Shown: piece after piece, positions 2,635 to 56,573 of the stretch
Layout: every line of letters begins with the position of its first letter
How positions within the stretch are numbered: the first letter of the stretch is position 1
Assembly: GCA_902728285.1 (NCBI GenBank)
Contig: CACVBU010000865.1
Location: 4,121,015-4,185,014, forward strand
DNA from: Clytia hemisphaerica
Lineage: Eukaryota; Cnidaria; Hydrozoa; Leptothecata; Clytiidae
Length of the DNA: 64,000 nt
Reading direction: 5' to 3'
Program-made: the position numbers and the translations under genes
Notes under the pieces: generated by a model
Told to the model about the DNA's origin: nothing
What the model saw: the letters and a program-made list of their open reading frames with translations, nothing else
The model's database searches: none

Positions 2635-2966
2635 AAAAATCGATAAATAAAATGAAAGCTTAAGTTAAAAGAGTCACACAAAAAAACTTTGTTTTGATTT
2701 TATTTTTCTGATTAGTATTTTATGAGACAAATGAAAATTAAAATACATCCAATAATGAATACTTGGCTCCTTGAATTCATTTAGTTGAAGAATAATCAAA
2801 AAATAATATTGATATTATGTATCCAAAGAACGGACGAAACATGTCGGGGAAAATCAAAATATAATAGCCGCATTCTTTTTCACCGTTCAACATATCTCTA
2901 TCGTATTTATTACGTGTTTTGATTATTTTTACCACACGAGCAATTGAGCTGTTCCATAAAATTTCT

Positions 2967-3206
2967 ATACAGGGGGGTGAACAAACCTTTTCAAGTGTAA
3001 ACAAATTTCTTGGAAAAGTGTAGATACCCCATGGAAAATGGCAAGATTTGCAAAAGAACCCTTGGAAAAAATTCTTTTCATCTCTTAAAGTGAGGGTGGA
3101 CGAACTAAAATCAGTTGCTCACCCCATGGAAACTCGAGAATAACTTTAGATCCCCTGGAAATTATTCTCGGATCACCCCCTGGAAATGTTTGTCCACCCC
3201 CTGTAT
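2967..3206. mobile_element. MITE with reiterated CCCC(T/A)TGGAAA motif
   Basis: Inverted ends ATACAGGGGGGTGAACAAAC (left) and GTTTGTCCACCCCCTGTAT (right) enclose 240 bp. The interior repeats a CCCCATGGAAA / CCCTTGGAAA / CCCCTGGAAA motif at least five times. No ORF. It lies between the fibrinogen-like pseudogene and the transposon fossils. Confidence 0.75.
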
Positions 3207-3261
3207 GGTCATAAAATGGCCGTGACAAGTGTATTCTATTTCTATTACTTTATTACAATTA

Positions 3262-5087: not shown

Positions 5088-8000
5088 TATGCCAATCAAC
5101 ACATTATTCCACTTCAAGAAGTCAAAATCATAACACTGGAAGATGACGGAAGTAAGATTGTTTTTTTATTCAATTTAATCCTGTTTTTTTTTTTTTACAA
5201 TTTCAAATGATTTTCTTGGTCTTGAAATTTTGTTGAAAAGGCAAATTTTTATGAAACTTTTGTTTTGAAAGGAGACAAAGTTAAAGTTAAAAAGACTCGA
5301 CCATTTCTTATTCTGATTCCATTTTTCGATTTTTTTTGTCTAATTCGCGCTGAAATGATGCTTTAGAGATTGGGCTTTTCTAGAATTTGATTATGGCGGG
5401 TGGAGGATGTAACAATTTTCAGTGATTTACCCCCCGGACAAGCATCAGTTGACCCCCGGACAACCCAAATTACCCCCGGACAGAGCAAATTTACCCCCTG
5501 GACAAGGCAAATTTTGATGATTTTTCGCTGACAATAATTATCCTCCACTCCCCCCCCCATGTACAGACATTTTCTGGAAGAGCCCATTCTTTAAGAATAC
5601 TATCCCTTATTTGAACCTTTTCAAGAGTTGAAAATGTTCTTTCTATGTCCCATAAAAGTTCGACTAAAAGAGGGAGAGGGTCATTTTTTTTGTTTTCGAA
5701 GTATTGGAAAATGAATAGCTGTAATAACTTCCATTTGTTTATTACCATCCAGCGTGTATTATTTCACTCGTATCATACTCTCGGGTACCTAATAGCCGGG
5801 GGGGGGGGGGTGGAATAAGCAGGGGGGTTGGAAAAAATCTCAAAATTTAATAAGCGGGGGGGTTGGAATAAAAATGTCCTGGGTGGAAAATGTTTGAAAA
5901 GGAGGTTAATACAGCAGAATTAAGACAAAAAAGGGAACTTTCAAAAACATTTTCCCAAAAATTAATAAGCGGGGTTGGAATAAGAATGTCCTGGGTGGAA
6001 AATTTTCGAAAAATTAATTAGCGGGGGGTGACGGCTATTAGGTACCCGAGAGTAAGAACAATGAGGCACAAACACCAAAAAAAAGTTAGCAACTAAGCCT
6101 AACTATTTTGTTCGTCAAAATTATTTTCTTTCGGTATCAGACTTCAAAAATGGATGGCAAATCATTAGTCCCAGTAAATCATTTGCTGTATACGCAGCGA
6201 CGCCCACAGAAAAAGCTGAATGGATGGCACATATCAACAAATGTATCAATGATCTTCTGAAAAAGAGTAAGATTTACGTAAAGTTTATTTATAAGAACAA
6301 ACTATATAAGAACATAAGGCTCCGATGGCCGAAATGTTAAGAACATGTTAAGAACATTTTTAGGCTTAAAACTCAAAGCTAAGAACATCCGATTACAGTC
6401 ATCTTTTCATGAATTTGTTACTCTGAAAGCAAGTATAAAATGTAATCTTAAATATTCTACAGTTGACGCTCTCTAATTCGACGTTCTACTATTCGATAGG
6501 CTCCCTTATTCGATGAAATTTAAAGTCCCCGTCAACAAGAAACTCTCATAAACGACGCTCCTTTACTCGATAAGCTCTCTTATTCGATGAAAATCCAATT
6601 CCCCTTGAAGCCCAAATTAGAGAGCGTATTTATTTTCTAGCTGGTAAGAAACCATCAGGCGAGGAAGCAGCCGTCTGGGTTCCAGATCAAAGTGCAAATG
6701 TCTGCATGCTTTGTCAGAAAACGAAATTCACTACCATTGTTCGTAAGGTGAGATAGATAGATAATAGGTAACGGTGTACCAATATATGGAATGTCCATAA
6801 AATTAATATTGGTACATTACACTTCGCCGTACCGTTTTTTCGAGCTGTCCCTGAAAAATCTCGATTTTTGACATTCCTTAAAATGTGTTACGAGATCCAC
6901 GGTCAGCAGATTTGGCTATTCTGACTTCAGGTCAAGCTAGAGTAGAATCTGAGAATATTGGTGTGTCTTTCTGTACGTGTCTGCCTTGAAGTCTTGTTGA
7001 TCTGAAATTTGGCACACTTGTTCTTTGGGTGAATACCTGTGGCAGTTTTTCAGATTAATGATCATTTTTGCTGAGAAGGTTAAGAGACCTTTTCCTTTGA
7101 GCATCTCTCGTAGGATTTTTATTTCAAAAGCCCAGTCTCAGGCAGCAGACTATCGAAAATGAGTGTTATTATCGAGTCTTAGTTTGAACCTTCACTGACA
7201 TTTTAAGATGTTATATTTTTTCAAAGTGATTTTAATTTCTTGACGAATACAAGAAATGTAGACAAGTGATTTTCCTTAACAAATGCAGATATTTTATGAT
7301 AATCGATTACTAAATACACTGCAGTCGCTTATAATTCATTTCATATAGTAATATGGGTGTTATATATGATAATACAAAAACTGTTAAAACTGTTTATATT
7401 ATTTGATTGACAGTTTTATTATAAGGTTATAAGTAATAACCGACTAGTTTACTAGTCTAATGTCTGATAACTGGTTTATCGGTGACCCAAAAAATGCACT
7501 TTTGTGTTGGAAAAAAGCGCAGGGCACTTTTGTAGCAAAGTGACGTTAGATTGCTGCTACCGCTACAATGCAACAACATCTTTTCGTCAATTTATATTTT
7601 TACATGTAAAATACAAGATATATTGTACTCTTTTTAAACCAATCAGATTGCAGATATTTTTTGGATCGCCGATTAGGGATAATATCAGTTTGTTCCTTTC
7701 ATTATTTTCTGCTTATTTTCTATAAATGTGTGTTTATTGGGAACTATTTTTCGCGGGAACTAATTTTTGCGTTTTTTGGTGTCTACCGCGAAAATTAGTT
7801 CCGCGAAATGCAATTTTTACTAAAAAATTCTCAAAAACTTGGTGTCGACCGCGAAAATAATTTCCGCAAAATGCGCCTGCAAATTTAGTTACTAAATTAT
7901 TTTTGCTACTTTTTTTCAGCATCATTGCAGACGTTGCGGATCGGTAGTCTGTGGGAATTGCTCATCCAAGCGGTTCCTCATCCCACACATCTCATCTAAA

Positions 8001-14859: not shown

Positions 14860-17800
14860 ATGATCCGAACAACGGAAAGTAGCTCCAGTTCTCCATATCT
14901 TCCACAAGAATCACCAAATGAAGTGCCACATCTACCAAAAATGTTAGCAATGACAAGTGCTGAGTCATCAAAATCAGAAAACGTTCCAGCGCTTATTCAA
15001 GCAGATGCCAACTCGAATTATCAGGCAGCACAGCAAGCAGTACAGGTGACGTCATCAGTGGTTCACGCTCATCAGATTATTCATCCCCTTGTTAACTCAA
15101 TACCACACCCACTTCCACCACCACCATCCTCTGTAGGGCCACCGGGAAGCCACCAACAAGCACAGGTGAATTGATCTTTTTTTCAAGGGTTTTGCTTTGT
15201 TTTTTGATAGGCTGGAAAATGAGAAATTAACTCAAGCGAATTTTAGATCTTAGCCTGGCGAATTCTTAGCAAGCCCATTGTATTTATCAGCGTGAGTATG
15301 TCGGTACAAAAATATTGATAAAAAACGGGTTGTCCAAAACAATGTTTTAAAAACTAATGGATATTGTTTTGAGGATGAAAATTACATGAGTGTAATAGTA
15401 AAGAGTGTATCTTTCAGAAAATAGCAATATATTCACCGAAAGAGTGGCATAGGATGAAATACCACTTTTTATGTCACCCGAAATCGAAAATCGTGGAATT
15501 CTTCATCCTTTTTGGACCTACCGGGAGGTCCTTTAATTTGACCGTTGTCCGTTCGTCTGTTACAAGCTTTTCTCGGGATTGGCTCATTAGTTTTTTTTAA
15601 TTTTTTGCACAATGATACAAAATAGCAATGCCTGAAAAGTGACGGAGCCCGATTTTTGAAAAAAAAATTTGGGGTGCAAATTTGGGCCAAAATCTACCTA
15701 AAAATAAGGTTTTTTGGACTTGGTGCAAAATTGCTTCATTAGTTTTTCCTGATTTTTGGCAGAAATATAGAGTGCAAGGTACCCTAAAATGTGGCTGAAG
15801 TAATTTTTCTCGGAAAATTTTTTTTCGTCGTAAAATACGGATTTTCGTTTTTTGGGGAAATTCCCTTTTACCATTTTCCTGTTAGCAGCTTTTCTCGGGA
15901 TTGGCTCATTAGTTTTTTTTAATTTTTTGCACAATGATACAAAATAGCAATGCCTAAAAATTGACGGAGCCCGATTTTTGAAAAAAAAAATTTGGGGGGC
16001 AAATTTGGGCCAAAAACTACCTAAAATAAGGTTTTTTGGACTTTGTGCAAAATTGCTTCATTAGTTTTTCCTGATTTTTGGCAGAAAGATGGAGAGCAAG
16101 GTTCTCTAAAAAGTGACTGAAGCAGTTTTTTTCGGAAAATTTTTTTTGGCCGTAAAAATCAGTTTTTCTTATTTGGGGAAATTCCCTTATGTCATTTTTA
16201 GGGAAAAAGAGCGTTTCTGGCGATTGGATCGATATTTTTTTCTGATTTTTTGTACTTTGATGTAATATGGTAATACTTAAAATCTGATGAAGTCCTATTT
16301 TCAAAAAATAATTTTTTGGGGCAAATTTGGGCCAACATGTGCCAAAAAATGGGGTTTTTTGGACTTTGTGTGAAATTGCTTCATTAGTTTTTTCAAATTA
16401 TATCTAAAACGTAACTCAAGCTTTTTTTTCCGGAAAAATTTTTTTGGCTGTAAAAATCGGATTTTCTTATTTGGGGAAACTCCCTTTTGTCATATTTAGG
16501 GAAAATGAGCATTTCTAGAGATTGGCTTGGTGTTTTTTTCTTATTTTTTGCATAGTGCTATAATATGGTAATATTTAATTTCTGATGGAGCCTGATTTTC
16601 GAAAAAATAATTTTTTGAGCAAATTTGGGCAGAAAAGTTCCTATATTCAAGCTGCTAATTACACTTTCTTACTCTCTTGCTATTTGTCCTACTTTTATCT
16701 GATTTTGATCACCAGGTAGGTCCATTCAGCATGTTGCTTGTTACTCCTTAAATTTAAATTTGAAAATTTATGGTATCAACAATAGATTTCCGAAGGGTTT
16801 AGATGATAAAACCGTTTTAAAAATTGCTGTAGTAAAAATCAGAAAATCTTGAATTTCTGGACTATTTCATCCCAAATTACTCCGAAACCTATATCATTGG
16901 AATCTTCGTGGAAAAATACTTCATTTTTGAAAATAAGGTCTCAAAATTCCTAACATTAAAGTTCAAGAGTTCTTTTGATTTGGAGACGTACGATAAACCT
17001 CCTCCAATCTGATCTTAAAAATGCCAAGAATTTTTGCAAAGAAATTAGGATTTTCCAGACAAAATCTGTGCACCCATGTTGAGGAGGCCCATTACCGTTC
17101 CATGGGGATAGGTTCTGAAATGCAGTGTCCATATGAGTAAAAATTGAAAATCTGTAAAGTTTCAGAATTCCAGAGAGTAATGATTCTGTAATTGCCTCAA
17201 ATTCCAAGGCGGTAGGTCACAAAAAAGTAGACCTCGTCAACAGAGGGGGTACATGTTTTCTTTTGCTAGAAAAGCTAATTGGGCAGTCGACCCCCTGGAC
17301 ATTCAAAATTACCCTCAAACAGAGCAAGTTTACCCCCGGACAAGGCAAATTTTGTAGATTTTTCACTACCCCCGGTAGACTGGAGCCGTTTATAATGCGT
17401 GTAATACTAATAATACCAATACTAATAATAATAATAATACGGGATTTAGTTTGTATAAACGACTGGAAGAATCCGGTGTTCCAGCCTTATAGATACAGGG
17501 GCTAGCTACGCAGAAACTTGCGTAGCGAGAAAACAATTTATCAAGCAACAACAAACTTTTAAAACGAAATCAACTCAAATGAAAAACTTTCAATACACAA
17601 ATCCACACATATTTTTTTTCTCAAGAATTATTTTGAGCAAGAAAAAATTATAATTGCAATATTGACACTTTTCTTTTGTTTGGAGTTAGTGCACAAAGGT
17701 TTCTAGACGACTAAAATTGTTCCATTCATTACTTTTTGCTTTATTTCTACTATGTATAAATTAGTCGTCTAGCTTGCTAGACTATACCCCCGGCCACTAT

Positions 17801-27505: not shown

Positions 27506-30500
27506 AGAATGGAGACCGACCAACCGACCGACTAAGATTGAGTTTTTGAAGCGAAATTAACCTAGCTTTTTTGTTGTTTATTAATTATTATCTTCAAATA
27601 TATATTAATTATATTCAGGCATATTAGAAATTCAATCTTAAAAGTTTAAAGTAAAACAGCCCCAGCTCAAAATGCTTAGAAAAATCCCTGGGTTTGAGGG
27701 ATTCTTTGACGTGAAGGTTTTGAACCATCTAGCTCTGAGTTATTGTAAAAAATCTGTTTCAGCTACATTAGCAAGCCTGGAGAAGAAGAAGGAAAGAACT
27801 TATATACAACCAACAAATTCAGGAAATTGAGAGAGGGACTTTCACACTGCATTGATTTTTTGTGCTACTGGAGGACCCTCCTGCAAAATTTCAATATTTT
27901 TGAATAAACTTTCTGAGAAAATCTCAGAGAAGCAAGGTTGCATGAAGAGTGTCGTGATCTCCGAGATTCAACAAGATTTCCTTCATCTAAATCCAATCAG
28001 TTGTTACTTGTCTGAGAGGTGAACTTGTGAGTGGCACATTTACCCTGGACCAAGTAACACTGAAAGATGAAAAGGCTGAATGAAGCCTTGCCAAATTTTC
28101 ACGAGTGAGGTTAAGAGGTGTCTGTTAGAAATATTTTTATTTATTTGAAGGGATAATCAGATAGTTGCCAAGATTGAGATATTTCACTACTGAACAGTCT
28201 ACAGGAAATAATGCTTACGATACGCATTTATACTAAGACCACAGAGTATATTTTGACCTCTTAATATACTAAGATATTTGACTCGTATAATAAAGTTGTA
28301 GTTATATAAGAGGTTGTAGTATGCTTAGAGATTAATGTCTTAAAATACCACGACAATTTTCTTAGCAAAATAAACTTTGTGAGAGGTAATTTAGAAGTCT
28401 TTTTATTAATTTAGAATTACCTCTAATCAATCGTACAGGTCCTTTTTGCAAATGATTTTACTGCAGTCTAAGATATTTGGGATAGAGATATTTCAATCTT
28501 GTTCAATCAACAGGTTAACCAAGAGCAAAGAGTTTGTTCCAGTAGACCCGTTCTTTATGCTGCGAACCCTCCATATTAATAGTCCCCTACCAGCGTCTTT
28601 TAATGAGTTGCACCTAATTAATTGGTCATTAAGAAACAAACAAAAAGTAAGAAATTTTCAGGAAACGGTGAATTCATAGGTTTAAGGAGGCTCTTTCCTA
28701 AAAGAATAAAAATTTGTTCAGGGGTACTTTTCATTGTTGAGGGACCTCTGAATGTACGTTATGTATGTGAATTGATGTTATAATGAGTTATGTCTTTTAG
28801 TATACTCAGATAATATGGCAAGGTCTTACTGTATGCTACGGTTAAACACGACCGATCTTATTATAAATTGATAGGTATTTTGGACAGGGGTCATGCATAT
28901 ACTTATGATTACTAAATGCAAAATCTAAACTCTGAAATACTCCCACCACTCTTCTGCAGTTAGTACCCAAAGCAAAGTACTTACTGTATTTGGTGGTCAA
29001 AAATCGAATATTACCCCTATTGTAATTAAGCATTTCGTGCCTCTGATACTCTTTTGTTTCCACATGGAAAGAAATCGCTACCCAATTTTTCTGGCTGTAA
29101 ATGACTCTGAAATAGGTCATAAACTAATAACACAGATAAAACATATTTTGTGCTTTGGTATATTTAAAAAATCTTATGGTTTAGAGCTCAAAGAGCTCAT
29201 GCAATCCTTTCATAGATAAAGATGTTTCTTGGAATAATGAAAACGAAAGTAAAAAAAGTATTTTTCAGTGCTAGTAAAAGGAAAAGCAGGATGGCGACAA
29301 ACATAACATAAAAGAATAGGGTAAAAGATATTAAGAAGTAAATAAGTGTGGCTATGGGGGAGAGGCTCGCAAGGTGTGTCCTTAAAAAGTAACCTAGAAA
29401 TTAAAAATTCATGTCAATATTGTCATTCAATAATTAATGAATTTTTCAAGGAAGAATTTGAATAATTATTAGTGAAAAATAGCTGATAGTGAATAGTTAC
29501 ATAGACTGATTCCATGGCGATGTCATTTGTTGCTAGGCCCAAACAGCACTCTGATGTTTGACCACTGCTTTATACCTATAATGTGATATATTCATCATGT
29601 AAATTATTTGAAAAAAGATCCCCTATAGACTTTTTCCCCACGTACATGTTTTTCTTTTTATAAGCTTAACGTTTATAAGCAAATGAAGGCTCAGATTTGC
29701 AGATTTTCTAAGCATAACATTAGCATATATGTCAGCCTGAAATATTTTTCAAGTCATTTATTTTTTTCTGATCAAAAAGGTTTAGAAGTGGTCTTAAACA
29801 AAGAGACATTCGAGTGATAGCTTAATTTCACTGCTCCTAAAATCTGAACGCTGTTTGAGTCAAATCTTTACAAAATTTACAAGGTTTTACAAAACTTGGT
29901 TCGTGGCGAATTATAAACATTATATAATTCATAAGGATATAATAAGCATACGCTATAACTGGATTATTTGAAAGCTTTAAGCATACACGAGCCTGGCCAA
30001 GGGGTAGACACTTGTTTATAAAAAAACATGTAACAACTGTATTGGCTGGATTTTAATTCCTCTTTGAAAATCCTTAACCTCAGTCAAACTTAATTTCCAC
30101 GTTTAAATATTTCGTGGTGAAATATTCGTTGTTTTCTTTTTTTCATATCAGCCAAGCTGAATCATTTGAGGCGTGCGACAGCATACGCACGTACAAATTA
30201 ATTACAAACTAAGTACAAATTACTAAAGAAGCTTCAAAATTGAAAAATTGACTGTGGCTCACACAGGTAGAGTTGGGTTTTTTGGATTTATAGCTCACTT
30301 CTTTCTCTTACCAAGTTTATATTTTCTTTATTCAGGATCGATCAAAAAAGTGAGGCAATCGAATCCATTATAATCGCTAGCAGTACATCATTAAAAAAAC
30401 GGGACGTTCACTTTACGGTGAGAAATTATTGATTTTTATTTTCTTAAAAAAGTGTCCATTGCAGTTTTTTTAATGTTTTTGAAGTCAATCAGTGATTAAT

Positions 30501-34993: not shown

Positions 34994-36580
34994 GGTGCAG
35001 ACTGAAAGAAGAAGTGGATTATAGAAGAGAGAATTTTGTTACAGATATGTATAACAACAACAAATTGAATTTATCGTGGGGTTTTGGGTGGGTGAGTTGA
35101 TTTTGAAATCAGTATTTTGATGCTCTCGGTGGGTGAGATAATTGAAGAACTGCTTCTAGTAGATAGATTTTTTAAGTTGTGTAACGTTTCTTTCGGTCAC
35201 GTAACAGTAGTTTTGAAGGTCAGAATACTTTAATTCTCTAGCGCCGTATCCTTTCCCCGTGCTATATAGGTTTTTTATAAGAACAAACTTTACAAGAACA
35301 TGCTTCGATAGCCAAAGTATTAAGAACAAGTTAAGAGCATCTTAAGGCTGTGTGCACTCTATTAAAACACCCGATTTCTTAGGACATCGCATAAAAATAT
35401 TCACAAAATGGGGAGAATAAAGAAGATTTGAAAAAATTTTAGGCTTGAAAACCAAAAAAAATATTAACATCCAAAAGTTTGACAAATTTTGTATGTTCTT
35501 ACAAAACGAAACGTTTTACATTGATTGCAAATTGTGATGTCGCAACTGGATCATTCCAACTGTTATTTTTCCCTCAATCTTGCGAAAATTGTTTTTTACT
35601 ACGCCTATTTGCATTTAGAAAACGGAGACTTCCTTTACGGCCGAAACATATAATAAAGCTATTTTAACTAAAAACTTTCATTATGTTGCTACCATTTTTT
35701 ATTTAATCTTTTTTTTAGCGTTTGTTCTACTCTAAATAATAGTAGTATTTGCAATACACTCTTTTTTTTTTTTGTAAGAGCAATTTCATTAGAATAATGG
35801 AGGCTCAAAATCGCCGAAAAGATGAGAATAGTTTGTGAATAATGCTTAGTCTGACCTTGTTTAATTTTAAGTAATCATAAAGGTTTTGTTTTTACATAAG
35901 TGTTCCCGTTTCATATCAGACACATATTTCATATCGGGACAGTGTCTTCCTATTGTTATATCATGCTGATATAAGCAAAAAAATCTTGTTTTTTCCTCTT
36001 TCTGACCAACCTTGCTTCGCATCCGTGTCAATTCAATGCGAAAAAGCTTGTAAATTTAAATTAATGAGTAAGCAAACAACATCACTCTTATTTAAAAACA
36101 AAACCTTTAATGTCAAAATATTAAAGATTGGGTAGAAAACTTAAAGCCCAAAAACTACCTCTATTCAAAATTTTTCTTTCGCAATTATAAGCAGATGAGT
36201 ACAATTTGCGATTCAAAGTGCCAAAAAATAAAGTTTACTTTCATCTTACAAAAAGTGAAGAATCATTAGACAAATGTGTTCACCTTTTTTATAAGAGCTA
36301 GTAAAATTTTGCTGAGGCATCTGCTGTTCTTACTCTTTTGGCACTTTTAGCCTCAAATTGTTCTTATCCCTGCTTATCCTGTTTTTATCAATAGGTTGTA
36401 ATTGAGGTATTTTAGGGACTATGCTCAATTTTTATTACTTTGACCCCTTAATTGCTTGAAATTGAGTAATAATTGAGTAATTTCAGACTCAGCATTGTAC
36501 TTAAAGTGTTCTTAAATTTGTTGGCGATTTCTAGTCTCATTGTTCTTATAAAATTGTTCTTATAAGAAAAGTGTTTAAAG
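34994..36580. repeat. Duplicated block, copy A
   Basis: From GTGCAGACTGAAAGAAGAAG through CGCCGTATCCTTTCCCCGTG, the AAGAACA repeats and GGTTGTAATTGAGGTATTTT, this matches copy B at 38070-39330 almost continuously. Copy A has about 320 extra bases (about 35820-36140) containing an AAAGGTTTTG MITE. Confidence 0.75.
35878..36110 (+). mobile_element. AAAGGTTTTG-family MITE, complete copy
   Basis: The ends AAAGGTTTTGTTTTTA / TAAAAACAAAACCTTTA are inverted. The interior includes TTTCATATC(A/G)GGACAGTGTCT, TGACCAA(C/T)CTTGCT and GATGAGTAAGCAAAC. Absent from the paralogous copy B, so it inserted after the duplication. Confidence 0.85.
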
Positions 36581-38070: not shown

Positions 38071-39330
38071 TGCAGACTGAAAGAAGAAGTGGATTATAGA
38101 ATGAGAGAATTTTGTTATGGATATGTATAACAACAACAAATTGAATTTATCGTGGGATTTTAGCTTGGTGAGTTGATTTTAAAATCAGTATTTTGATGCT
38201 CTCGGTGGGTGAGATAATTGAAGAACTGCTCCTAGTAGATTTTTTAAGTTGTGTAACGTTTCTTTCGTTCACGTAACAGTAGTTTTGAAGGTCAGAATAC
38301 TTAAATTCTCTAGCGCCGTATCCTTTCCCCGTGCTATATAGGTTTTTTTATAAGAACAAACTACTGTATATAAGAACATGCTTTGATGGCCAAAATATTA
38401 AGAACATGTTAAGAGCATCTTAAGGCTTTGCGGACTCTATTAAAACATCCAATTTCTTAGGACATTGCATAAGAATATTCACAAAATGGGGAGAATAAAG
38501 AAGATTTAAAAAAATTTTAGGCTTGAAAACCAAAAAAATATTATCATCCAAAAGTTTGACAAATTTTGTATGTTCTTACAAAACGAAACGTTTTACATTG
38601 ATGGCAATTTTGATTTCGCAACTGGATCATTCCAACTATTTTTTTTCCCTCAATCTTTCCGTTGTTTGCAATAATTTAACTACACTGCTTTACTACGCAT
38701 ATTTGTATTGAGAAAATGGAGACTTCCTTTACGGCCGAAATATACAATAAAGCTATTTTAACTAAAAACTTTTTCATTACGTTGCTGCCATTTTTTATTT
38801 AATCTTTTTTTTAGCGTTTGTTCTACTCTAAGTAATAGTAGTATTTCCAATTTCGTAAGAGCAATTCTATTAAAACAATGGAGGCTCAAAATCGCCGGAT
38901 ATAAAACTACCTCAATTCAAAATTTTTCTTTCGCAATTATAAGCAGATGAGTACAATTTGCGATTCAAAGTTCCAAAAATAAAGTTTACTTTGATCTTAC
39001 TAATAAAAGTGAAGAATTATTAAACAAATATGTTCACCTTTTTTATAAGAGCTAGTAAAATTTTGCTGAGGCATCTGCTGTTCTTACTCTTTTGGCACTT
39101 TGAGCCTCAAATTGTCCTTATCCTGTTCTTATTAATAGGTTGTAATTGAGGTATTTTAGGCACTATACTCAATGTTTACTACTTTGACCCCTTAATTGCT
39201 TGAAATTGAATAGTAATTGAGTAATTTCAGACTCAGCATTGTACTTAAAGTGTTCTTATTTGTTGGCGATTTTTATTCTCATTGCTCTTATAAAATTGTT
39301 CTTATAAGAAAAGTGTTTAAAGTTAAAAAA
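38070..39330. repeat. Duplicated block, copy B
   Basis: Near-identical to 34994-36580 but lacking the MITE-bearing 320 bp. The block contains two AAGAACA-family regions (38340-38560 and 39040-39320), so the duplication unit may itself be a larger composite element. Confidence 0.75.
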
Positions 39331-41330: not shown

Positions 41331-42359
41331 GAAATAGCCATTTTTGCTGATTTTCTTTGGATTTTTTCGTTCAACCTTTGTTGGTTTTTTTTGAAACTAA
41401 TTTTTCATGGATTTTTTGTTTTTCCAATTTACAAATTCGCCAACCAAGTCAAAAATAGTATTTTGTGGCCATTCGTTAAAATAGATCCACGCAAAAATTC
41501 ATCCACTTGAGGGAAGTTTTGAAAGTACCCCGGAAAATGCACACATCCGAATATTTTGAGAAACAAGCAAGGCTGGCCCGTAATAAATAATTAATACCAA
41601 CGGGACAGGTGGCCGAACTTAGTAAAAGAATAGGAAGATGCTCAAAGGATTAACATTATCGAGGCACCCATAGTGTCAGTTAATGATGCACGGTCTCAAA
41701 AATTACACCTGTCATTCTTTATTTTTTGAAAGAAAACGAGACCAAGGAAGATTACTGCAGACACTGGATAAGCGCGTCGCAAAACGGTCGAGCGCGAGTA
41801 TGTCTTTCAATTGTTTCAGAAAACAATCGATACTATTTTTAGACAAATAAGCTGTTAGAAAAACTTTCCGAAAATGTATTTTTACTTCGGTAAAAGATAC
41901 TACGCAAAAGTTTTATAAAAATGTTTTTTCTTCGCCGATAATAAGCTCTTCAAAATTGAAATACTCTTCTTCGCAAAAGTCTTCATTTTCTTCCTCACCA
42001 AATATTTTCATTGCGATTCTTAAATTTTCAGACTCTAGACTTTCAGCCTTGGCCTTGAACAGACAATGTATAACATGTATAGAATTTATATTTTGTACTT
42101 GCCAAATATTAAATATTCACGGGGGGAGGAGAGAAATTTTCACACGCTAAAGCTCTGAAGATCGGGAAAATTTTCAACATCTGGAAGGTTTAGATTACGG
42201 AATTTTTCAAGACTGCGTGAAGGATTTTGCAGCAGGAGGTCTGGTAACCCACCCCTTGCTTTCGAGGATTGGCGGGTCCAATCGAAATATTTTTACCTTT
42301 ACGCGCAAGGGTAGTTGAACCCGACTGGGTTTATTTCATGCACTCCGTGAATCGGATAA

Positions 42360-42610
42360 ACGTTTTTTTATAAAAGAACATCCAAAAATTTTGAAGCCTT
42401 AGGATGTTCTTAACTTTTTGAGCTTTAAGCCTAAAAATGTTCTTAACATGTTCTTATTTTCACTATTTTGAAAGCATTGTTTGTCCATTTTCTTTAGAAA
42501 TAGGCCATTTTAGAGTCCACACAGCCTTAAATTGTCCGTAACTTGTTCTTAACATTTTGGCCATCGAAGCATGTTCTTCTTATATAGTTTGTTCTTATAT
42601 AAAAAAACTT
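42360..42610. mobile_element. AAGAACA-family MITE, complete copy
   Basis: The ends CGTTTTTTTATAAAAGAACA and TGTTCTTATATAAAAAAACTT are inverted. The interior carries GTTCTTAACATGTTCTTA, TGTTCTTAACATTTTGGCCA and TCGAAGCATGTTCTT. It serves as reference for fragments at 6285, 13870, 35270, 38340, 47005, 49060 and 49390. Confidence 0.75.
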
Positions 42611-42649
42611 GTATGAAAAATTGGCACTGAAGGGATTAAATTAGCAAGT

Positions 42650-43300
42650 ACCTTCCCACTAAACCTTTTTTTTAACGCAATAAATAAAGTAGTTTTCGTC
42701 TAGAGTCTAGAGAATTAAATTAAGACAAATGGAAGAATTTTAGATTAGGTTTACTCAACTTCCCACTAAACCTTTTTTTTAACGCAATAAATAAAGTAGT
42801 TTTCGTCTAGAGTCTAGAGGATTAAATTAAGACAAATGGAAGAATTTTATCTTAGGTTTACTCAACTTACAACTAAACCATTTTTTTCAGCGATAAAAAA
42901 ATGCAGTTCTCGTCTAACAGTCTAGGATTATATTAAGACGAACGGAAGAATGTTAGCTTAGGTTTACTTAACTTCCAACTAAACCATTTTTTCCGCCATT
43001 GAAAAAATGCAGTTCCTGTCTAATAGCATAGGATTAAATTAAGACGAACGGAAGAATGTTAGCTTAGGTTTGCTTAACTTCCAACTAAATCATTTTTTTT
43101 CCGCGATAAAAAAATGCAGTTCTCGTCTAACAGTCTAGGATTAAATTAAGCCGAATGGAAGAATTTTAGCTTAAGTTTACTCAACTTCCCACTAAGCCAT
43201 TTTTTACGCGATAAAAAATTAGTTTTGTCTAATCAACAGCTTAGAATTAAATTTAAGATGAATGGAAGAATTTTAGCTTAAGTTTACTCAAAAAGTTGTC
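42650..43300. repeat. Minisatellite of about 108-bp units, six copies
   Basis: The unit (TTCC(A/C)ACTAAACCATTTTTT ... GTCTA ... GGATTAAATTAAGACGAA(C/T)GG AAGAATTTTAGCTTAGG) recurs six times with 3-15% divergence. It ends about 55 bp downstream of the opsin stop and may fall within that gene's 3' UTR. Confidence 0.8.
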
Positions 43301-46860: not shown

Positions 46861-47004
46861 TCGGGTGCTTCCGTTAGAAATAGATATGACATCATCTTGA
46901 CTTATGCATATCAATTATAAGACTGGTGATAAATTCCGGATTATTGTGTTTCCGCATGTCTGAATTCTAAAGAGTTTAAGAATTTCTATAAAGCGGTATA
47001 CACG

Positions 47005-47290
47005 TTATTTTATAAGAGCAAACTATATAAGAACATAATGCTTCGATGGCCAAAATGTTAAGAACAAGTTAATAACATTTTAAGGCTTTGTAGACTCAAA
47101 AACGCCCTATTTCTTAGGAAATTGGTCAAAAATATTTGTAACTGCCGCAGGCCTGCATAAAACCCAACCACGTTGACTTCTTACTGTTGTCTAATGAAAA
47201 GACTGGACATCAGTAACAATACTCACAAAATGATCAAAATAAGAACATAATTATTAAGAACATTTTTAGGCTTAAAACTCAAAAAGTGTC
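47005..47290. repeat. AAGAACA-family repeat with small insertion
   Basis: TATAAGAACATAATGCTTCG, GGCCAAAATGTTAAGAACAA and TTTTAGGCTTAAAACTCAAA are present. About 85 unrelated bases interrupt the middle (about 47135-47220). Confidence 0.55.
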
Positions 47291-48273: not shown

Positions 48274-48568
48274 TACACGTTTTTTTTTTTATAAGGAACA
48301 CGTTTATAAGGAACTCGAGGCTGAAAATGGTTCAAAAAATAAGGAATTGTTAAGGAACTGTTCAGGCTGAGGATAAGTGGATTTGAAAATAATGTACCTA
48401 ATTGGGACTAATTTGACCAAATTTTGATCTTTCAAGGGGCAAAAAGTTCAAAATCTCCTATGTAGTAAGGAACTCGATAAGGAACTTTGAGACTGAAATT
48501 CTCTGAAAAAATAAGGAACTCCAGGCTCAGAGCAAAGTTAAGGTTCCTTATAAAAAAAAAAACGTGTA
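48274..48568. mobile_element. TACACG(T)n MITE, AAGGAAC family (copy 1)
   Basis: The ends TACACGTTTTTTTTTTTATA and the inverse ATAAAAAAAAAAACGTGTA enclose AAGGAAC words: ATAAGGAACACG, TTTATAAGGAACTC, GAGGCTGAAAATGGTTC, TAAGGAATTGTTAAGGAACT and CAGGCTGAGGATAAG. Confidence 0.85.
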
Positions 48569-48599
48569 CCCCACAACTTAGCCCAATTGGCTACCCCAA

Positions 48600-48995
48600 T
48601 TAGCTCTAGTTTAGACGGCCCACTTTTCGCCATGCCTATTCTAATTGTGAATTAAAGAGGGCATAAAGTGGGCTGTCTAAAGTCGATGCATAGCCTTTTG
48701 ACGTTAATGCAATGACTTCTTTCAACCTTTTCCAAGCAAAGATTTTAACTGCCGACTTGGTGCCCACTTTCTGCCTACTCTGACAATTAGAATAGGCAGG
48801 GCAGAAAGTTGGACTTCTAAACTAGACCTTAGCTTTAGTTTAGACGGCCGACACAAAGTTGGTTGTTAAAATCTTTGCTTGCATTGACGTCAAAAGAGGG
48901 CTATGCATCGACTTTAGACAGCCCACTTTATGCCCTCTTTAATTCACAATTAGAATAGGCAGGGAAGAAAATCGGCCGTCTAAACTAGAGCTAAG
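48600..48995. mobile_element. Double foldback with TTAGCTCTAGTTTAGACGGCC ends
   Basis: Two copies of one MITE lie head to head. The left one ends near 48825 (CTTCTAAACTAGACCTTAGC) and the right starts near 48830 (TTAGCTTTAGTTTAGACGGC) and ends GGCCGTCTAAACTAGAGCTA. The two halves are reverse complements in long blocks (GAATTAAAGAGGGCATAAAG and GTCGATGCATAGCC). Confidence 0.75.
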
Positions 48996-49510
48996 CTACC
49001 CTGATTTTTAGACCAACCCACAATAACAAGCTAGGAACACTTCGCGAACCCTAACTAAAACACCCAATTTCTCAGAAAAAGCTCACAAAATTGTGACAAT
49101 AAGAACATTTTTAGGCTAAATTATTAAGAACATCGCTTCAAAAATTTATATGTTCTTATAAAGAAAACATGTATCTACTTTTATCATTAAGAAAATGTGA
49201 AGTCATTTGAACGAAGGTACTTAAAATAGAATGGTCCTCTCTTCTAGAAAGGAATCGAAATTTTTTTTAAATTGATAACTTGCTATCTTGTTATCATGTA
49301 AGGTAAAAATAGGCAAAACATTTTGTAATTTCGAAATTTTTCTTCGGTTTTCCTACAATTTTTGGTAAAAATATCAAGAATTTTCTAAGAAAAAACTATA
49401 TTTAAGAACATAAGCCTTCAATGGCCACAAAATATTTTAAGAACAAGTTGAGAACAAGTTAAGGACAATTTGAGGCTTTATGGACTCTAATACACCCAAT
49501 TTGCAGGAAA

Positions 49511-49854
49511 TACACGCCTTTTTTTATAAGAATGGTGTAAATCCATTTCATCATGGATATTCTTAACTTTTTTGGGAAAATCATCTTAAAATATTCTTTT
49601 AGCATTCTTAGGTTAGGACCCTAATTCAAACTAGATTTAACATTTAGTACATACGTCTCATGCATAAAATGGCCTTTTTGAGAAGGAGTGAGCCTTACTT
49701 GGACTTATAATTGAAAATGCTCTAAAAATGGCATTCTTAGCTTGAGTAGCATAATTCCATGATGGTGATATTCTTAGCATTATTCTTAATTTTTTGGCCA
49801 TTTTCATCATGGACATTCTTATAAAGTGTATTTCTTATTTAAAAAAAGGGTGTA
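49511..49854. mobile_element. TACACG(T)n MITE, AAGAAT/ATCATGG family (copy 1)
   Basis: It starts TACACGCCTTTTTTTATAAG and ends AAAAAAAGGGTGTA. The interior has TTTCATCATGGATATTCTTA and GGCCATTTTCATCATGGACA. It matches 54109-54460 closely. Confidence 0.8.
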
Positions 49855-50537
49855 GTAAAAATAGAGGGTTTTAAATTAAGAAGGATTATTGCACCCACGC
49901 TTCGATCGCACATTTTGCATCGAAAGTTATTGTTCTTCGGTAGAAAACACTTTGTTTGTTACTATGTTACTTCATATGCTTTCTCAAAATAGCTGTGATT
50001 TTCTTTGTTCAGCAATGGCTCTTGAAATTTATGTAACCCTATTCATTATAAAAACACTGGTCTGGATGATTTATTGTTAAAAAATAGAGCTTACGTTACA
50101 AAATCGATTTACTATGCATTCGTTTTGATCATGTAATTAGAAAATAGACCAATCCCAAGAGGAGATTTTGGCAACGTGATCAAAAAGTATGCAAATCGCA
50201 ACTTGCCTTTTGTTTGTAACAAAAGAAAATTTAACAAAAAGCTAAAACAATACAATGCCAGACCGGGGTTTTTGTAATGACTACAGTATGATGTAACTTA
50301 ACTCTATAGTTCGGTACCTATAACTTTAGAATAAACAAAATTAGTCTGGGTTACCTGAGTGTCTGCTTTTAACAGGCGATTTTGATGCATTTCAAAAATG
50401 GCTTGTGCTTGAAAATTTAGATATTTCTTGTCAAGTCCGAAATATTCACAATAATTTCATGCAAAAGTGAAACAAAAGTAATGTATACAAATTATGTGAT
50501 TCCTTTTGTCAATGTACCATAGACATTGAATTATGTT

Positions 50538-50750
50538 ATAGGTTTTGTTTTTACATTTCAGACGCATATTTCATTTTGGGTCAATGTCTTCCTATTGTTA
50601 CTTTATGCTGATTATAAATAAATGTTTTTCTTTCCCTCTTTATGACCAATCTTGCTCCATATCCGTGTCAATCCAATGTGAAAAAGCTCGTGAATTAAAA
50701 TTGACGAGTAAGCAAACGATATCACTCTTATCTAAAAACAAAACCTTTAA
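50538..50750 (+). mobile_element. AAAGGTTTTG-family MITE
   Basis: It starts TATAGGTTTTGTTTTTACAT and ends AAAAACAAAACCTTTAA, with the family interior (CAATGTCTTCCTATTGTTA, GACGAGTAAGCAAACG). Confidence 0.75.
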
Positions 50751-50839
50751 ACGAAAAATTATTTTCTCATTTTAGTATTCCTAGCCCAAGTAAAAACGAT
50801 TTTGCAGTGTTGATTTATCTGGGGTGGGGTTCGGATATA

Positions 50840-51123
50840 TACACGTTTTTTTTTTATAAGGAACCTTAACTTTGCTCTGAGCCTGGAGTTCCTTATTTTT
50901 ACAGAGAATTTCAGTCTCAAAGTTCCTTATCGAGTTCCTTACTACATAGGAAATTTTGAACTTTTTGCCCCTTGAAAATTTGGTCAAATTAGTCCCAATA
51001 AGGTACATTATTTTCAAATCCACTTATTCTCAGCCTGAGCAGTTCCTTAACAATTCCTTATTATTTGAACCATTTTCACCTTCGAGTTCCTTATAAACGT
51101 GTTCCTTATAAAAAAAACGTGTA
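50840..51123. mobile_element. TACACG(T)n MITE, AAGGAAC family (copy 2, reversed)
   Basis: It is the reverse complement of the 48274 copy with a few per cent divergence and retains both TACACG(T)n ends. It is followed by a (TATATC)n tract at 51121-51145. Confidence 0.85.
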
Positions 51124-51773
51124 TCTATATCTATATCTATATCTTGGGTGGGGTTGGGAATAATATGCGCCCTCCGAAAACAAAACAAAATCTGATTTTT
51201 GAAGAATTTAAACCTTGCTGATTTCTTATCTTTCTTGGATAAAAAGTTACAGCACTGTTAAGAAACCCATTATTCTTAAATTTATTTTTCAATTTTTGAT
51301 TTTTTTTAATCCTTTAGATTTTGATTAGATGTATAACTTTCTAACATAGAATGAATGTGTGCTGAGAAAATGCCAACAAACTAAAGTATCCACATACTTT
51401 TGAGACATACTTTTTAGCTTAGTTGCAAACAAACTCGGTAAAAATATGATCGCCTTTGCCAAAGACTTTTCGTATTCCCAAAGCAATAAAAGTATTTTGT
51501 TATCAAAAACAAAGGCAAAAATAATGACATCTACGTTATTCCCAAGAGCAATTAAAAATGACAATGGTAATATGCTTTGGCTTAGTTGTACTATAAAACA
51601 GTCCGCCAGATTTTCGTTGTTTTTGCCAGGTAAAAAAAATGAAGCAATGTTTTTATTTGAAAATAAGGGATTCAAAATTTGTTATTGATGTTTGTTTTTC
51701 ATTCACAATTATATTTTTTATAACTGCAAGTAGCTTTTTTTGTTATTTGGATTTTAAACATTTTTTTTCAAAA

Positions 51774-51884
51774 ATGGCAACCTCGTCAAATGCTCCTAGT
51801 CTACTTCACTGGGCTCAGCGTCATCAAAAATTATTAGAAAGCAAAGTTCAAGCAGAAGTAGACTCTAGTCTAGCGTTTGTATAA
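51774..51884 (+). CDS. Short ORF (36 aa) with a paralogue at 30.9 kb
   Basis: ATG 51774 to TAA 51884 encodes MATSSNAPSLLHWAQRHQKL and then LESKVQAEVDSSLAFV. The SxAPSLLHWxxRHQKxxxxKVQxE pattern recurs on the minus strand near 31000 with substitutions between related residues. It may be a first exon or a fragment of a repeated gene. No family recognised. Confidence 0.3.
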   Translation: MATSSNAPSLLHWAQRHQKLLESKVQAEVDSSLAFV

Positions 51885-51933
51885 AGGGAAAACTTGTTGA
51901 ATGGAGGTTATACATCACACTTGACACTCTGAC

Positions 51934-52296
51934 TACACGTTTTTTTTTTTATTAGAACACCTAAAATTTGGCTGAGCCTGGATGTGCTTATTTTTTCAGC
52001 AATTTTCAGCCTTAAATGTTCTTAAATGCGTTCTTAATTTTTCAGACTACAAATCGAAAATATCATGCAAAATAAATAAAAAGTTGGTAAAATTTGGACA
52101 ATATTTGACATTCGATTTTGGAAAATCTATCCCTAAGTTCGGTTAAAACTGCTTGAAAAGGGGAAAAGGATGGATACTTTCTTGTCATTTTTTCCAAACT
52201 GAGGCTGGGCATGTTTTTACGATGTTCTTAATTTTTCAACGAATTTTAGCCTAAATGTTCTTATAAACTAGGTTCTAATAAAAAATAAAACGTGTA
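51934..52296. mobile_element. TACACG(T)n MITE, third family
   Basis: The ends TACACGTTTTTTTTTTATTA and AATAAAAAATAAAACGTGTA enclose ATTAGAACACC, GCTGAGCCTGG, GTTCTTAAATGCGTTCTTAA and GAATTTTAGCCTAAATGTTC. The interior differs from the AAGGAAC family but uses the same word order. Confidence 0.75.
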
Positions 52297-52305
52297 TCGT
52301 TATGG

Positions 52306-52721
52306 TGACTTTTGTTCGTTCGTTCGTTCGTTACCAGCTTTTCTCGGGATTGGCTCATTATTTTTTTCTGATTTTTTGGAAAGTGATGTAAAATGGTAAT
52401 TCTCAAAACGTAACGGAGCCCGATTTTCAAAAAAAAATTTCAGGCCGAAAATGCTGGAAATATGCCGGAAAAACCGGTTTTTTGGCATTTTCTCGAGATT
52501 TCGTCACCAGTCTATCCCGATTCAAGCATGATTCTTGATTTTTGTTACCGGGACTTTCTATTTCTTTTTTCCCTACTCCCCTTCCCTCTCCCCCCCCCCC
52601 ATCAACATGATGAAATTTAATGCGTTATGTTATGCTTTTTCGCTAAACGCTATATATTTTCCGACTGATTGTTTTCATTTTTCTCCCTATTGCTATCTAA
52701 CTTTCATCATCAGGTAGGTCC
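52306..52721. repeat. GGACCTACC-family repeat with short (TTCG)5
   Basis: (TTCG)n followed by TTACCAGCTTTTCTCGGGAT matches the family. The right end is CAGGTAGGTCC at 52711-52721. The left end directly abuts the TACACG MITE. Confidence 0.6.
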
Positions 52722-52839
52722 ATTCAGCACCTAGTTTGTTATCATTGACCCAATTCAAAATTCAGGCACTAGATATTGAAAAGAGCTCTATATAGCAAAC
52801 CAAAAATTGCTGACTTGAAGCTGGTACTTTTAAGGGCTA

Positions 52840-53044
52840 CTTAGCTAGACTACACAATATATTGGTGAACAATATTTGACAATATAGTTTTTGGACAGTA
52901 ATGTACGGAATAAATAACAGGTGCTCTACTATAAAATGGAATTTTCTTTCTGTAAACAATCCCCCTATATTGTTGGAATATTGCAAATCGAGCTGACAAT
53001 ATATTGTCAATATATTGCCTGACAATATGTAGGCTATTTAGCTC
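52840..53044. mobile_element. CAATATATTG-reiterating element
   Basis: The ends TTAGCTAGACTACACAATAT and CAATATGTAGGCTATTTAGC are imperfect inverted repeats. GACAATATATTG words recur near both ends. Confidence 0.5.
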
Positions 53045-53271
53045 TTTAGGAGAAAGTAATCGATTCCTACGGTAAAATAATAATCGTTTAACACCCTTCA
53101 ATTATTTCATTTAGAGTAACACATATTTGGCGAAGTATCAATCAAACAAAAGATTCATCTTAACTTTGGACACACCTATTAGTAAGTTCTTTTGTTAACA
53201 TCAGCCCCTACGCACAGTATCACAACTATTTTTTAATGAAAAGGTCACGGTTTCCGGGGAAGAATTTCTTT

Positions 53272-53508
53272 CCGTTAAAGTTTTATTCTTGCATAAATGT
53301 TCACGTTTCATATCAGACACATATTTCATATCAGGACAGTGTCTGCTTATTGTTATATTATGCTGATGTAAGTAAAAAATGTTTTTCTTTTCCTCTTTCT
53401 GACCAATCTTGCTCCACATCTGTGTCAATCCAATGTGAAAATGCTTGTGAATTAAAATTGATGAGTAAGCAAACGATATCACTCTTATTTGAAAACAAAA
53501 CCTTTAAG
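53272..53508 (+). mobile_element. AAAGGTTTTG-family MITE
   Basis: Nearly complete copy: TTAAAGTTTTATTCTTGCAT on the left, the family interior, and GAAAACAAAACCTTTAAG on the right. Confidence 0.75.
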
Positions 53509-54108
53509 ATTAAGATTATTATACTGTAAAATGTGTTATTTTTATATTTAACTTAGATAATGAGATCTTCACGAAAAAAATTGTTTTTCGGAAGTCGTGG
53601 CCCATTTGAGAGTGAAGATAATTGATTTTCTTGATTTTGGCAACCTTTTAAAAGGAAGGATTTACTTATTTGTAACCCTTACTTTTTTCTTAGCCTTCTC
53701 AGATATCTGAGGCTGGAATTGTTATCAATTTGTTTTTAGGTTCTAACTATAATTTAAACATCGTGTTCTTATAAATAGCCTGTATTTTAACTTCCGAAAT
53801 TTAGACTGTGAGAACGTTCACTTAAAATCGTGGACTTTCTACGCCTGTGATAGCTTTTTACACCTTTAAGTTGTTTGGGTTGTGCCTTTATCATCCCGCC
53901 CCCAGCCCTCGCTACTTGTAATAGCAAAAACTCAAAAAGATGAATATATTTTTTAGCACCTCACCAAAAACGCGGATTTTTCATAAAAAAAGAGGGGGAT
54001 AGGAAGGAAGGGGGATAGTTTAAGAAGGGGGGGCTTACATATATATTGTAGATTATTTTCAATCACTTATGAAATTTAGTCTTCATGAAAGAAAGTTTTC
54101 TAATAGAG

Positions 54109-54460
54109 TACACGCTTTTTTTTTATAAGAATGGTGTAAATCCATTTCATCATGGATATTCTTAACTTTTTTGGGAAAATCATCCTAAAATATTCTTACA
54201 GCACATTCTTAGGTTAGGATCCTAATTCATACTAGATTTAACATTTAGTACATACGTCTCAAGCATAAAATGGCACTTTTGTAAAAGGAGTGAGCCTTAC
54301 TTGGGGATAATTGATAATTGATAATGCTCTTAAAATTGCATTTTTAGCCTCAGTAGCATATTTCCATGATGGTGAAATTCTTAGCATATTATTAATTTTT
54401 TGGCCATTTTCATCATGGACATTCTTATAAAGTGTATTCTTATAAAAAAAAAAGCGTGTA
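54109..54460. mobile_element. TACACG(T)n MITE, AAGAAT/ATCATGG family (copy 2)
   Basis: The ends TACACGCTTTTTTTTTATAA and TTATAAAAAAAAAAGCGTGT(A) are inverted. The interior matches 49511-49854. Confidence 0.85.
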
Positions 54461-55458: not shown

Positions 55459-55784
55459 TTCGTTCGTTCGTTCGTTCGTTCGTTCGTTCGTTCGTTCGTT
55501 CGTTCGTTCGTTCGTTCGTTCGTTCGTTCGTTCGTTCGTTCGTTCGTTCGTTCGTTCGTTCGTTCGTTCGTTCGTTCGTTCGTTCGTTCGTTCGTTCGTT
55601 CGTTCGTTCGTTCGTTCGTTCGTTAGTTCGTTAGTTCGTTAGTTCGTTAGTTCGTTAGTTCGTTAGTTCGTTAGTTCGTTAGTTCGTTAGTTCGTTAGTT
55701 CGTTAGTTAGTTCGTTAGTTCGTTAGTTCGTGAGTTCGTCCGTCCGTCCGTCCGTCCGTCCGTCCGTCCGTCCGTCCGTCCGTT
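55459..55784. repeat. Compound TTCG / TTAGTTCG / TCCG microsatellite
   Basis: About 41 TTCG units (55459-55622) pass into TTAG-TTCG alternation (55623-55735) and then about 12 TCCG units (55737-55784). It sits at the GTTCG position of a GGACCTACC-family repeat, whose body resumes at 55785 (CTCGATATTGGCTCATTAG). The reading frame through it encodes a RSFV repeat but is not a gene. Confidence 0.95.
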
Positions 55785-56309: not shown

Positions 56310-56319
56310 TTAAAGTATC

Positions 56320-56573
56320 ACTTGTTTTTTATAAGAATACACTTTATAAGAATGTCCATGATGAAAATGGCCAAAAAATTAAGAATATGATAAGAATATC
56401 ACCATCATGAAATTTAGCAACTGAATCTAAGAATGCCATTTTTAATGCATTTTAACCTGTTGATTGCCAATTTCGATCTTAATCTAAGAATATCTTTGGA
56501 TGATTTTCGCCAAAAAGTTAAGAATACCCATGATGAAATGAAAAAACACCATTGTTATAAAAAAAGCGTTTAC
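56320..56573. mobile_element. AAGAAT/ATCATGG-family MITE (reversed, diverged)
   Basis: It starts CACTTGTTTTTTATAAGAAT and ends ATAAAAAAAGCGTTTAC. It contains GTCCATGATGAAAATGGCCA and ACCCATGATGAAATG. Confidence 0.65.

Follow-up and report, generated by a model that had tools for sequence, protein, structure and literature searches.

A common eight-word layout with family-specific words in the ends of miniature transposon families of Clytia hemisphaerica

We analysed a 64,000-nt stretch of the Clytia hemisphaerica genome (assembly GCA_902728285.1, contig CACVBU010000865.1, positions 4,121,015-4,185,014 of the forward strand; this whole stretch is called the window, and all window coordinates are counted from its first letter), with the region 48274-54460 under study. 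Pairwise alignment and layout scans found at least six families of short non-coding elements resembling miniature inverted-repeat transposable elements (MITEs) in the window, designated A, B, C, D, E and Z, all of which arrange eight short words in one and the same way, divided between two ends that differ from each other. The words begin with TAAG, and their tails differ by family (GAAC in A; AAT in B; AAC in C, D and E; CAT in Z) and are mostly uniform along an element. This word-array pattern is real, well supported and partly new. The reading that we prefer, and to which we give a probability of about two in three, is that the words serve as docking sites for a multimeric transposase, whose specificity would have shifted between families with the geometry staying fixed.

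Layout of the elements

The common layout is asymmetric and can be written as W1-15-W2-33-W3-11-W4 for the first end (End1) and W5-12-W6-34-W7-39-W8 for the second (End2), with W8 inverted, so that End1 consists of four words and End2 of four words with the terminal one reversed. The word spacing is constant to 1-3 bases across the six families, whereas the middle between the two ends varies from 70 to 212 bases. W1 and W8 lie inside the terminal repeats, and a GGCT-type box stands a few bases past several words. The family A element at 48274..48568 (forward strand) may serve as an example: its words start at 48292 (W1), 48307 (W2), 48340 (W3), 48351 (W4), 48466 (W5), 48478 (W6) and 48512 (W7), with the inverted W8 at 48543-48550, its word is TAAGGAAC with TAAGGAAT at W3, and the TA at either extremity represents the target duplication. 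A sequence-only reading of this stretch had described an end grammar of TACACG(T/C), a T run and ATAAG, followed by two leading words, a GGCT-type block, a second word pair and GGCT again. All of these parts were found to be present, and the coordinates named for the elements are correct within 3 bases, the AAGAAC copy being at 42357-42613.

By pairwise alignment the six elements named in that reading fall into four families, A (48274 and 50840), B (49511 and 54109), C (51934) and D (42357-42613); families E (36278 and 39032, a local duplication) and Z (29643) are additional in the window. Six separate families are ruled out for the named elements, as the A pair is 0.97 and the B pair 0.93 identical over aligned bases. 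The window elements are 257-390 bp long and have inverted terminal repeats, no open reading frame (ORF) of at least 120 aa was found inside them, and near-identical copies exist, as expected of MITEs; high copy number was checked for family A, which has 40 scored places at 97-100% identity among 2056 first-look candidates in the genome (417 Mb, 951 contigs).

Chance was addressed with three kinds of scan. The free-word scan looked for 7-mers repeated at the four End1 spacings with at most one mismatch and no word letters fixed. Its matches comprise a simple repeat at 55641-55683 (most rows), 11 places where the words are of the TAAG type, and three strays (44067, plus 39317 and 36575 inside family E elements), compared to 0-2 matches in 20 first-order Markov (Markov-1) runs and 0-1 in 20 local shuffles. 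An array of an 8-nt unit from 55371 to about 55830 (40 register copies) is the source of most of these rows. The core-only scans used the TAAG cores alone, with tails unused, over 359.5 kb including pieces sampled outside the window (L-numbered loci). They gave 27 End1 matches, against 0-1 per run in 10 Markov-1 runs and 2, 4, 2 and 0 at four wrong spacings on the real sequence, and 17 End2 matches, against 0-1 per run in 10 Markov runs; the matches include likely chance ones (End1 at 2791 in L035, End2 at 437 in L005) and several copies of one tandem array. The layout recurs in a sample from elsewhere in the genome. Eight of the 27 End1 matches fall in the 200 kb of L031-L050, which were taken at even steps along one contig, and the resulting End1 rate of one per 25 kb is only rough because four of the eight share one 10 kb piece. 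Scans in which like tails were scored gave 19 matches in 264 kb (0 in 10 Markov controls) and, in 363 kb, 32 End1 and 22 End2 matches (0 in 6 controls), the latter counts including two L001 matches that duplicate window ones and several from a single tandem array. These scans are unable to test concerted change because the score rewards like tails.

Family-specific words

Agreement of the words along an element was measured on the tail, defined as the three letters after TAAG, using one copy for each of the six families, eight slots and three copy sets. Tails agree between slots of the same element at 0.813, 0.909 and 0.817 in the three sets, compared to 0.486, 0.500 and 0.461 for the same slot between families, and permuting families within slots reached the observed agreement in 0 of 20000 trials in each set; these counts keep the misplaced End2 slots of one family B copy (B_w56313). 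A seven-group version, in which misplaced slots of truncated or wrongly bounded copies were also kept (B_49511, B_56332 W5, B_L037, D_L035b, E_L035 and A2_L037), gave 0.833 versus 0.492 (0/20000). Among the core-only matches, tail agreement is 0.874 for the 27 of End1 (shuffled mean 0.589, maximum 0.687) and 0.899 for the 17 of End2 (shuffled mean 0.586, maximum 0.725), with 0 of 20000 shuffles reaching either value. The earlier claim that each family has its own key word, repeated with few changes from slot to slot, is borne out by this comparison, and TAAGCAT, a further word class absent from the earlier list, obeys the same rule: the Z copy at L027 has it in six slots, with TGAGCAT at W4 and TAAGCAA at W8. 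Across the genome, AAT tails at both W1 and W2 with spacing 15 have 1733 matches, against 180 for a reversed-pattern control.

The sequence-only reading had itself named a single family with ordinary point divergence as the outcome that would speak against it. The ends of the compared families are indeed homologous by layout and spacer sequence, as described below, which such divergence would produce. The extra G of family A is found in all eight of its words, however, most slots of Z have CAT, and tails resemble each other more along one element than they do at the corresponding slot of different families. The six-family permutation and the core-only scans both disfavour this explanation, and we regard it as very improbable.

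Homology of ends, middles and copies

Homology was compared for A, B, C and Z, which have a common End1 spacing, in six pairs. Mean pairwise identity is 0.88 for the TAAG cores, 0.54 for the spacers between words and 0.44 for the tails. Permuted spacers have a mean identity of 0.279 (sd 0.027) with a maximum of 0.389 in 2000 permutations; single pairs range from 0.43 to 0.64, and the test covers the mean of the six pairs. We take the ends of these four families to have one ancestor because of this spacer identity. Judged by these two means, tails show no greater likeness between families than spacers do, though they are mostly uniform inside an element. Convergence of unrelated families on the layout would account for the shared word spacing; it leaves the spacer identity, well above the permuted values in the mean, without a cause, and hardly deserves credence.

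The middles are different. The share of 200 shuffles that scored as well as the real alignment is 0.78 for A-B, 0.01 for A-C, 0.035 for A-Z, 0.555 for B-C, 0.11 for B-Z and 0.01 for C-Z, so that the middles seem mostly to lack visible common descent. The earlier statement that the elements share almost no alignable interior thus holds for the middle and fails for the spacers between words.

The spacers also bear on an explanation without any selecting protein, by which the words became alike inside elements through slippage, gene conversion or the reuse of short repeats. Tandem-repeat turnover is what the authors of the VANDAL21 study propose for concerted motif change in those elements (PMC5735166). 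The spacers between the words here are conserved between families and stable in length, and conversion would need tracts confined to 7-8 bases at eight separate places, so that we consider such an origin improbable.

The families comprise copies of different ages. Identity between copies is 97-98% in A (best-scoring copies), 89-90% in B, 86-88% in C, 77% in Z, 73-86% in D and 70-75% in E (without the local duplicate), which suggests that they spread at different times. The family A elements at L003, L004, L018 and L024 (C232) sit in a tandem repeat of about 1.43 kb and were seemingly multiplied with it.

Ends, target duplication and superfamily

All 30 family A loci (chosen by match) start with TACACG, and right ends were parsed in 23 of the 30, the remainder being missed by the search pattern. 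The joined flanks of family A insertions were compared with uninterrupted paralogues, and a single TA was found at the empty site in four of seven comparisons (L013/L016, L016/L013, L023/L002 and L025/window); of the other three, two with a diverged tandem array gave AA or a gap and one was poorly aligned. The TA in these four comparisons shows that family A has a TA target duplication, which leaves CACG...CGTG as the ends proper of the element. In the window, copies of B (49511 and 54109), C, D (42357) and Z have TA...TA flanks, and families other than A probably duplicate TA too. The ends are CACG in A, C, most of B and several D copies and CATG in Z; those of family E are degenerate.

Tc1/mariner transposons and their MITEs have a TA target duplication, short non-autonomous elements and high copy number. 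The duplication is present in family A, and in B, C, D and Z it is seen as TA...TA flanks only; the elements here differ in their two dissimilar ends, which together hold eight sites whose word depends on the family. In the CACTA/En-Spm (CMC) superfamily the ends begin with CAC, and subterminal short words (TnpA-binding repeats) lie near both of them. By this definition, CAC ends and subterminal arrays of short repeats are found here as well, with family Z ending in CATG; we know of no constant asymmetric spacing across CACTA families. Both Tc1/mariner and CACTA/CMC may be regarded as candidates for the superfamily. CMC target duplications are 2-4 bp (PMC4482050). Repbase assigns non-autonomous elements to the same superfamily when their duplications are equal and their first 11 bases are alike with one mismatch (PMC4455052). 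This rule would place A, C and the B copy at 54109 in one superfamily, provided that their TA flanks are duplications.

Two other parents were tried and rejected. ISL2EU (PHIS) elements have an AT target duplication within A|AT|T, and their ends usually begin with GG (PMC4482050), compared to TA in family A and CACG or CATG ends here. The piggyBac superfamily, with the coral elements named CMITE, requires a TTAA duplication, its defining feature (PMC2872659), compared to TA in family A. PF13613 (HTH_Tnp_4), the helix-turn-helix domain of ISL2EU, is nonetheless common in the genome, with 124 matches.

Proposed mechanism and alternatives

We propose that the families are non-autonomous cut-and-paste DNA transposons, and that the eight TAAG-words are probably docking sites of a DNA-binding domain, belonging either to the transposase or to an accessory protein that the autonomous element also encodes; a second contact may be made at the GGCT-type box. 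Many short oriented sites at fixed spacing in two unlike ends look like end recognition by a multimeric transposase, and the fixed spacing suggests several protein subunits in set positions upon pairing of the two ends. A separate autonomous lineage would have spread each MITE family, with the specificity of that lineage shifting in the word tail (AAC, AAT, GAAC or CAT). The slots would then have changed together, and the geometry held, because only elements with matching sites kept moving. The different words between families, their agreement along the element and the frozen spacing would all point to selection by a protein of changed specificity. The identity and role of this protein, its multimeric state and its co-diversification with the words are what we infer from the DNA.

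The words could instead bind a regulator encoded by the element, like the anti-silencing factor VANC, or a host factor, in which case co-evolution would act on expression or silencing and not on end recognition. This is a live alternative because VANC, the nearest published parallel, is an anti-silencing protein, and its targets are repeated short non-coding motifs (YAGTATTAC versus YAGTATTAT) that change together between related elements (PMC5735166). The presence of W1 and W8 in the terminal repeats and the fixed spacing in two unlike ends are a better fit to end recognition, and the VANC21 motifs lie in tandem repeats whose number varies, located in the introns and upstream regions of elements that carry genes (PMC5735166). 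We judge a regulator unlikely, if still worth keeping in view next to docking by a transposase.

Related transposons in which a repeated motif changes in concert have thus been published before. In VANDAL21/VANC21 of Arabidopsis, as here, a short non-coding motif occurs many times per element, its variant differs between relatives and it changes in concert; VANC21 is an element-encoded, sequence-specific protein that binds the repeated motif (PMC5735166). VANDAL21 differs in its gene-bearing elements and tandem motifs of variable copy number; the elements here measure about 257-390 bp, have a TA duplication and keep their eight sites at fixed spacing. Transposase-binding sites beyond the ends are likewise known in Galileo of Drosophila, a member of the P superfamily with THAP sites (PMC3688188), which is similar in having several short internal binding sites and subfamily-specific recognition with weak or no cross-binding. 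Its sites are few and far apart and its terminal repeats long, and the passages compared contain no conserved eight-site layout (PMC3688188). CMITE of Acropora corals also consists of MITE families of one animal genome with partly common architecture (PMC2872659); here the duplication is TA and the conservation is in the ends. No description of the eight-word layout or of these words was met in the literature among the titles and abstract openings listed, with Repbase entries and most subscription papers outside this scope. That the families form an undescribed group of TA-inserting animal DNA transposons, with an eight-site code in two unlike ends and a transposase whose specificity changed several times (TAAGAAC, TAAGAAT, TAAGGAAC, TAAGCAT) under frozen geometry, is a tentative proposal that we hold to be possible and rather doubtful.

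Several observations weigh against docking by a co-diversified transposase. The autonomous partner with the same ends, for which the sequence-only reading had suggested looking, was not found among the ORFs of the sampled loci or in the genome-wide contexts of the family A End2, and no autonomous element or transposase could be linked to the ends, with no search aimed at the Tc1/mariner or CACTA transposase families. The ORF scan covered 10 of the 52 listed ORFs of at least 150 aa in the sampled loci. An integrase core (rva_4) was found in two of them, both outside the nearest element end as far as the elements were mapped: in L046 a lone family C End2 at 8817-8935 gives way to unrelated sequence, with an N stretch from 9204, and the ORF ends 96 bases outside, and in L026 the second ORF lies at 2652-3221, about 270 bases outside a family E fragment. 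The family A End2 with a non-MITE context occurs at four places in the genome, two of which resemble a one-base MITE variant.

Further points concern the statistics and the words themselves. One of three wrong End2 spacings tried on real sequence gave 6 matches (the others 0 and 0), the core-only permutations treat copies, including those of tandem arrays, as independent, and the permutation with one copy per family rests on six families. Exceptions to the family word recur: TAAGGAAT at W3 is recurrent within family A, all three copies of C (window, L015 and L050) have TTAGAAC at W1 and W8 and TAAGCAC at W7, TAAGAGC stands at W8 in two of the three copies of E, a family with other odd slots as well, and the window copy of Z (29643) deviates at W1, W2, W5 and W8. 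Since C, D and E have one word in common, word and family are not one-to-one. Mixed pairs of AAC followed by AAT or CAT at spacing 15 number 171 in the genome (control 7), a count unscaled by those of AAC-AAC and GAAC-GAAC pairs. With W1 and W2 one base further apart (spacing 16) there are 216 matches genome-wide, against 6 in the control; among the 82 that were read, about 40 belong to a dispersed family with TAAGAAC followed by TAAGCAC (TAAGAACTCTTTATTATAAGCACT), and 28 are arrays with TAAGAAG followed by TAAGAAC. Related-looking sequences with unlike words therefore exist, as judged on W1 and W2 alone. The units of the tandem arrays in G000:C54 and C62 contain TAAGAAG...TATAAGAACA at spacing 16, with successive matches often about 117 nt apart.

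Other features of the window

The second family A copy (50840..51123) is in the opposite orientation, on the reverse strand, with spacing 15,33,11,108,12,34,39. Both named family B elements are on the reverse strand and have the word TAAGAAT: the one at 49511..49854 has TAAGAAA at W1 and AAAGAAT at W6 (spacing 16,33,12,166,11,34,39), and the one at 54109..54460 has TAATAAT at W3 (spacing 15,33,11,172,13,34,39). A further B copy with a shorter middle lies at 56316..56572 on the forward strand. The family C element (51934..52296, reverse strand) has the word TAAGAAC, with TAAAAAC at W4 beside the family's recurrent exceptions. In the family D element at 42357..42613 (reverse strand; spacing 15,31,11,84,11,33,42) TAAGAAC occupies five of eight slots. 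Other D copies, all on the forward strand, are at 46999..47287 (End1 complete, End2 partial), 6281..6390 (End1 and a truncated remainder), 35271..35516 and 38343..38593, the last two being partners within a local duplication. This duplication, 35027-36580 / 38103-39320, has pieces about 88-98% identical and contains one D and one E element per copy; the E elements, both on the reverse strand, are at 36278..36572 (TAAGAAC in five of eight slots; spacing 14,34,11,127,10,34,41) and 39032..39314 (spacing 14,32,11,116,11,34,41). The family Z element is at 29643..30032 on the forward strand, with ends TACATG.

An inverted repeat at 48600-48994, close to the family A element at 48274, has 96-nt arms that are 94% complementary and 203 nt apart, and is foldback-like. 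A tandem array of five copies of a 106-107 nt unit occupies 42668-43218. A dispersed repeat family with ends like AAGGTTTTGTTTTTA, found at 26619, 35880, 50520 and 53277, adjoins several of the elements studied, and another with GTTACCAGCTTTTCTCGGGATTGGCTCATTA-like sequence is at 15542-16641, 41189, 52318 and 55760, partly in tandem with units of about 298-323 nt. An HMG-box ORF (Sox-like reading) and an ORF resembling an opsin-like receptor were also seen.

Significance

The layout groups MITE families that a base alignment of their middles would separate. If the words are docking sites, one genome would hold several matched sets of sites, each of eight sites at near-constant spacing. It would then be testable how a DNA-binding protein changes its target when many sites must change too, and which of the sites are essential, as well as whether a new word class frees new mobile elements from cross-mobilisation or host control. 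Should the families prove to be an undescribed group, they would offer a natural series of protein variants, each matched to its sites, from which a recognition code might be read.

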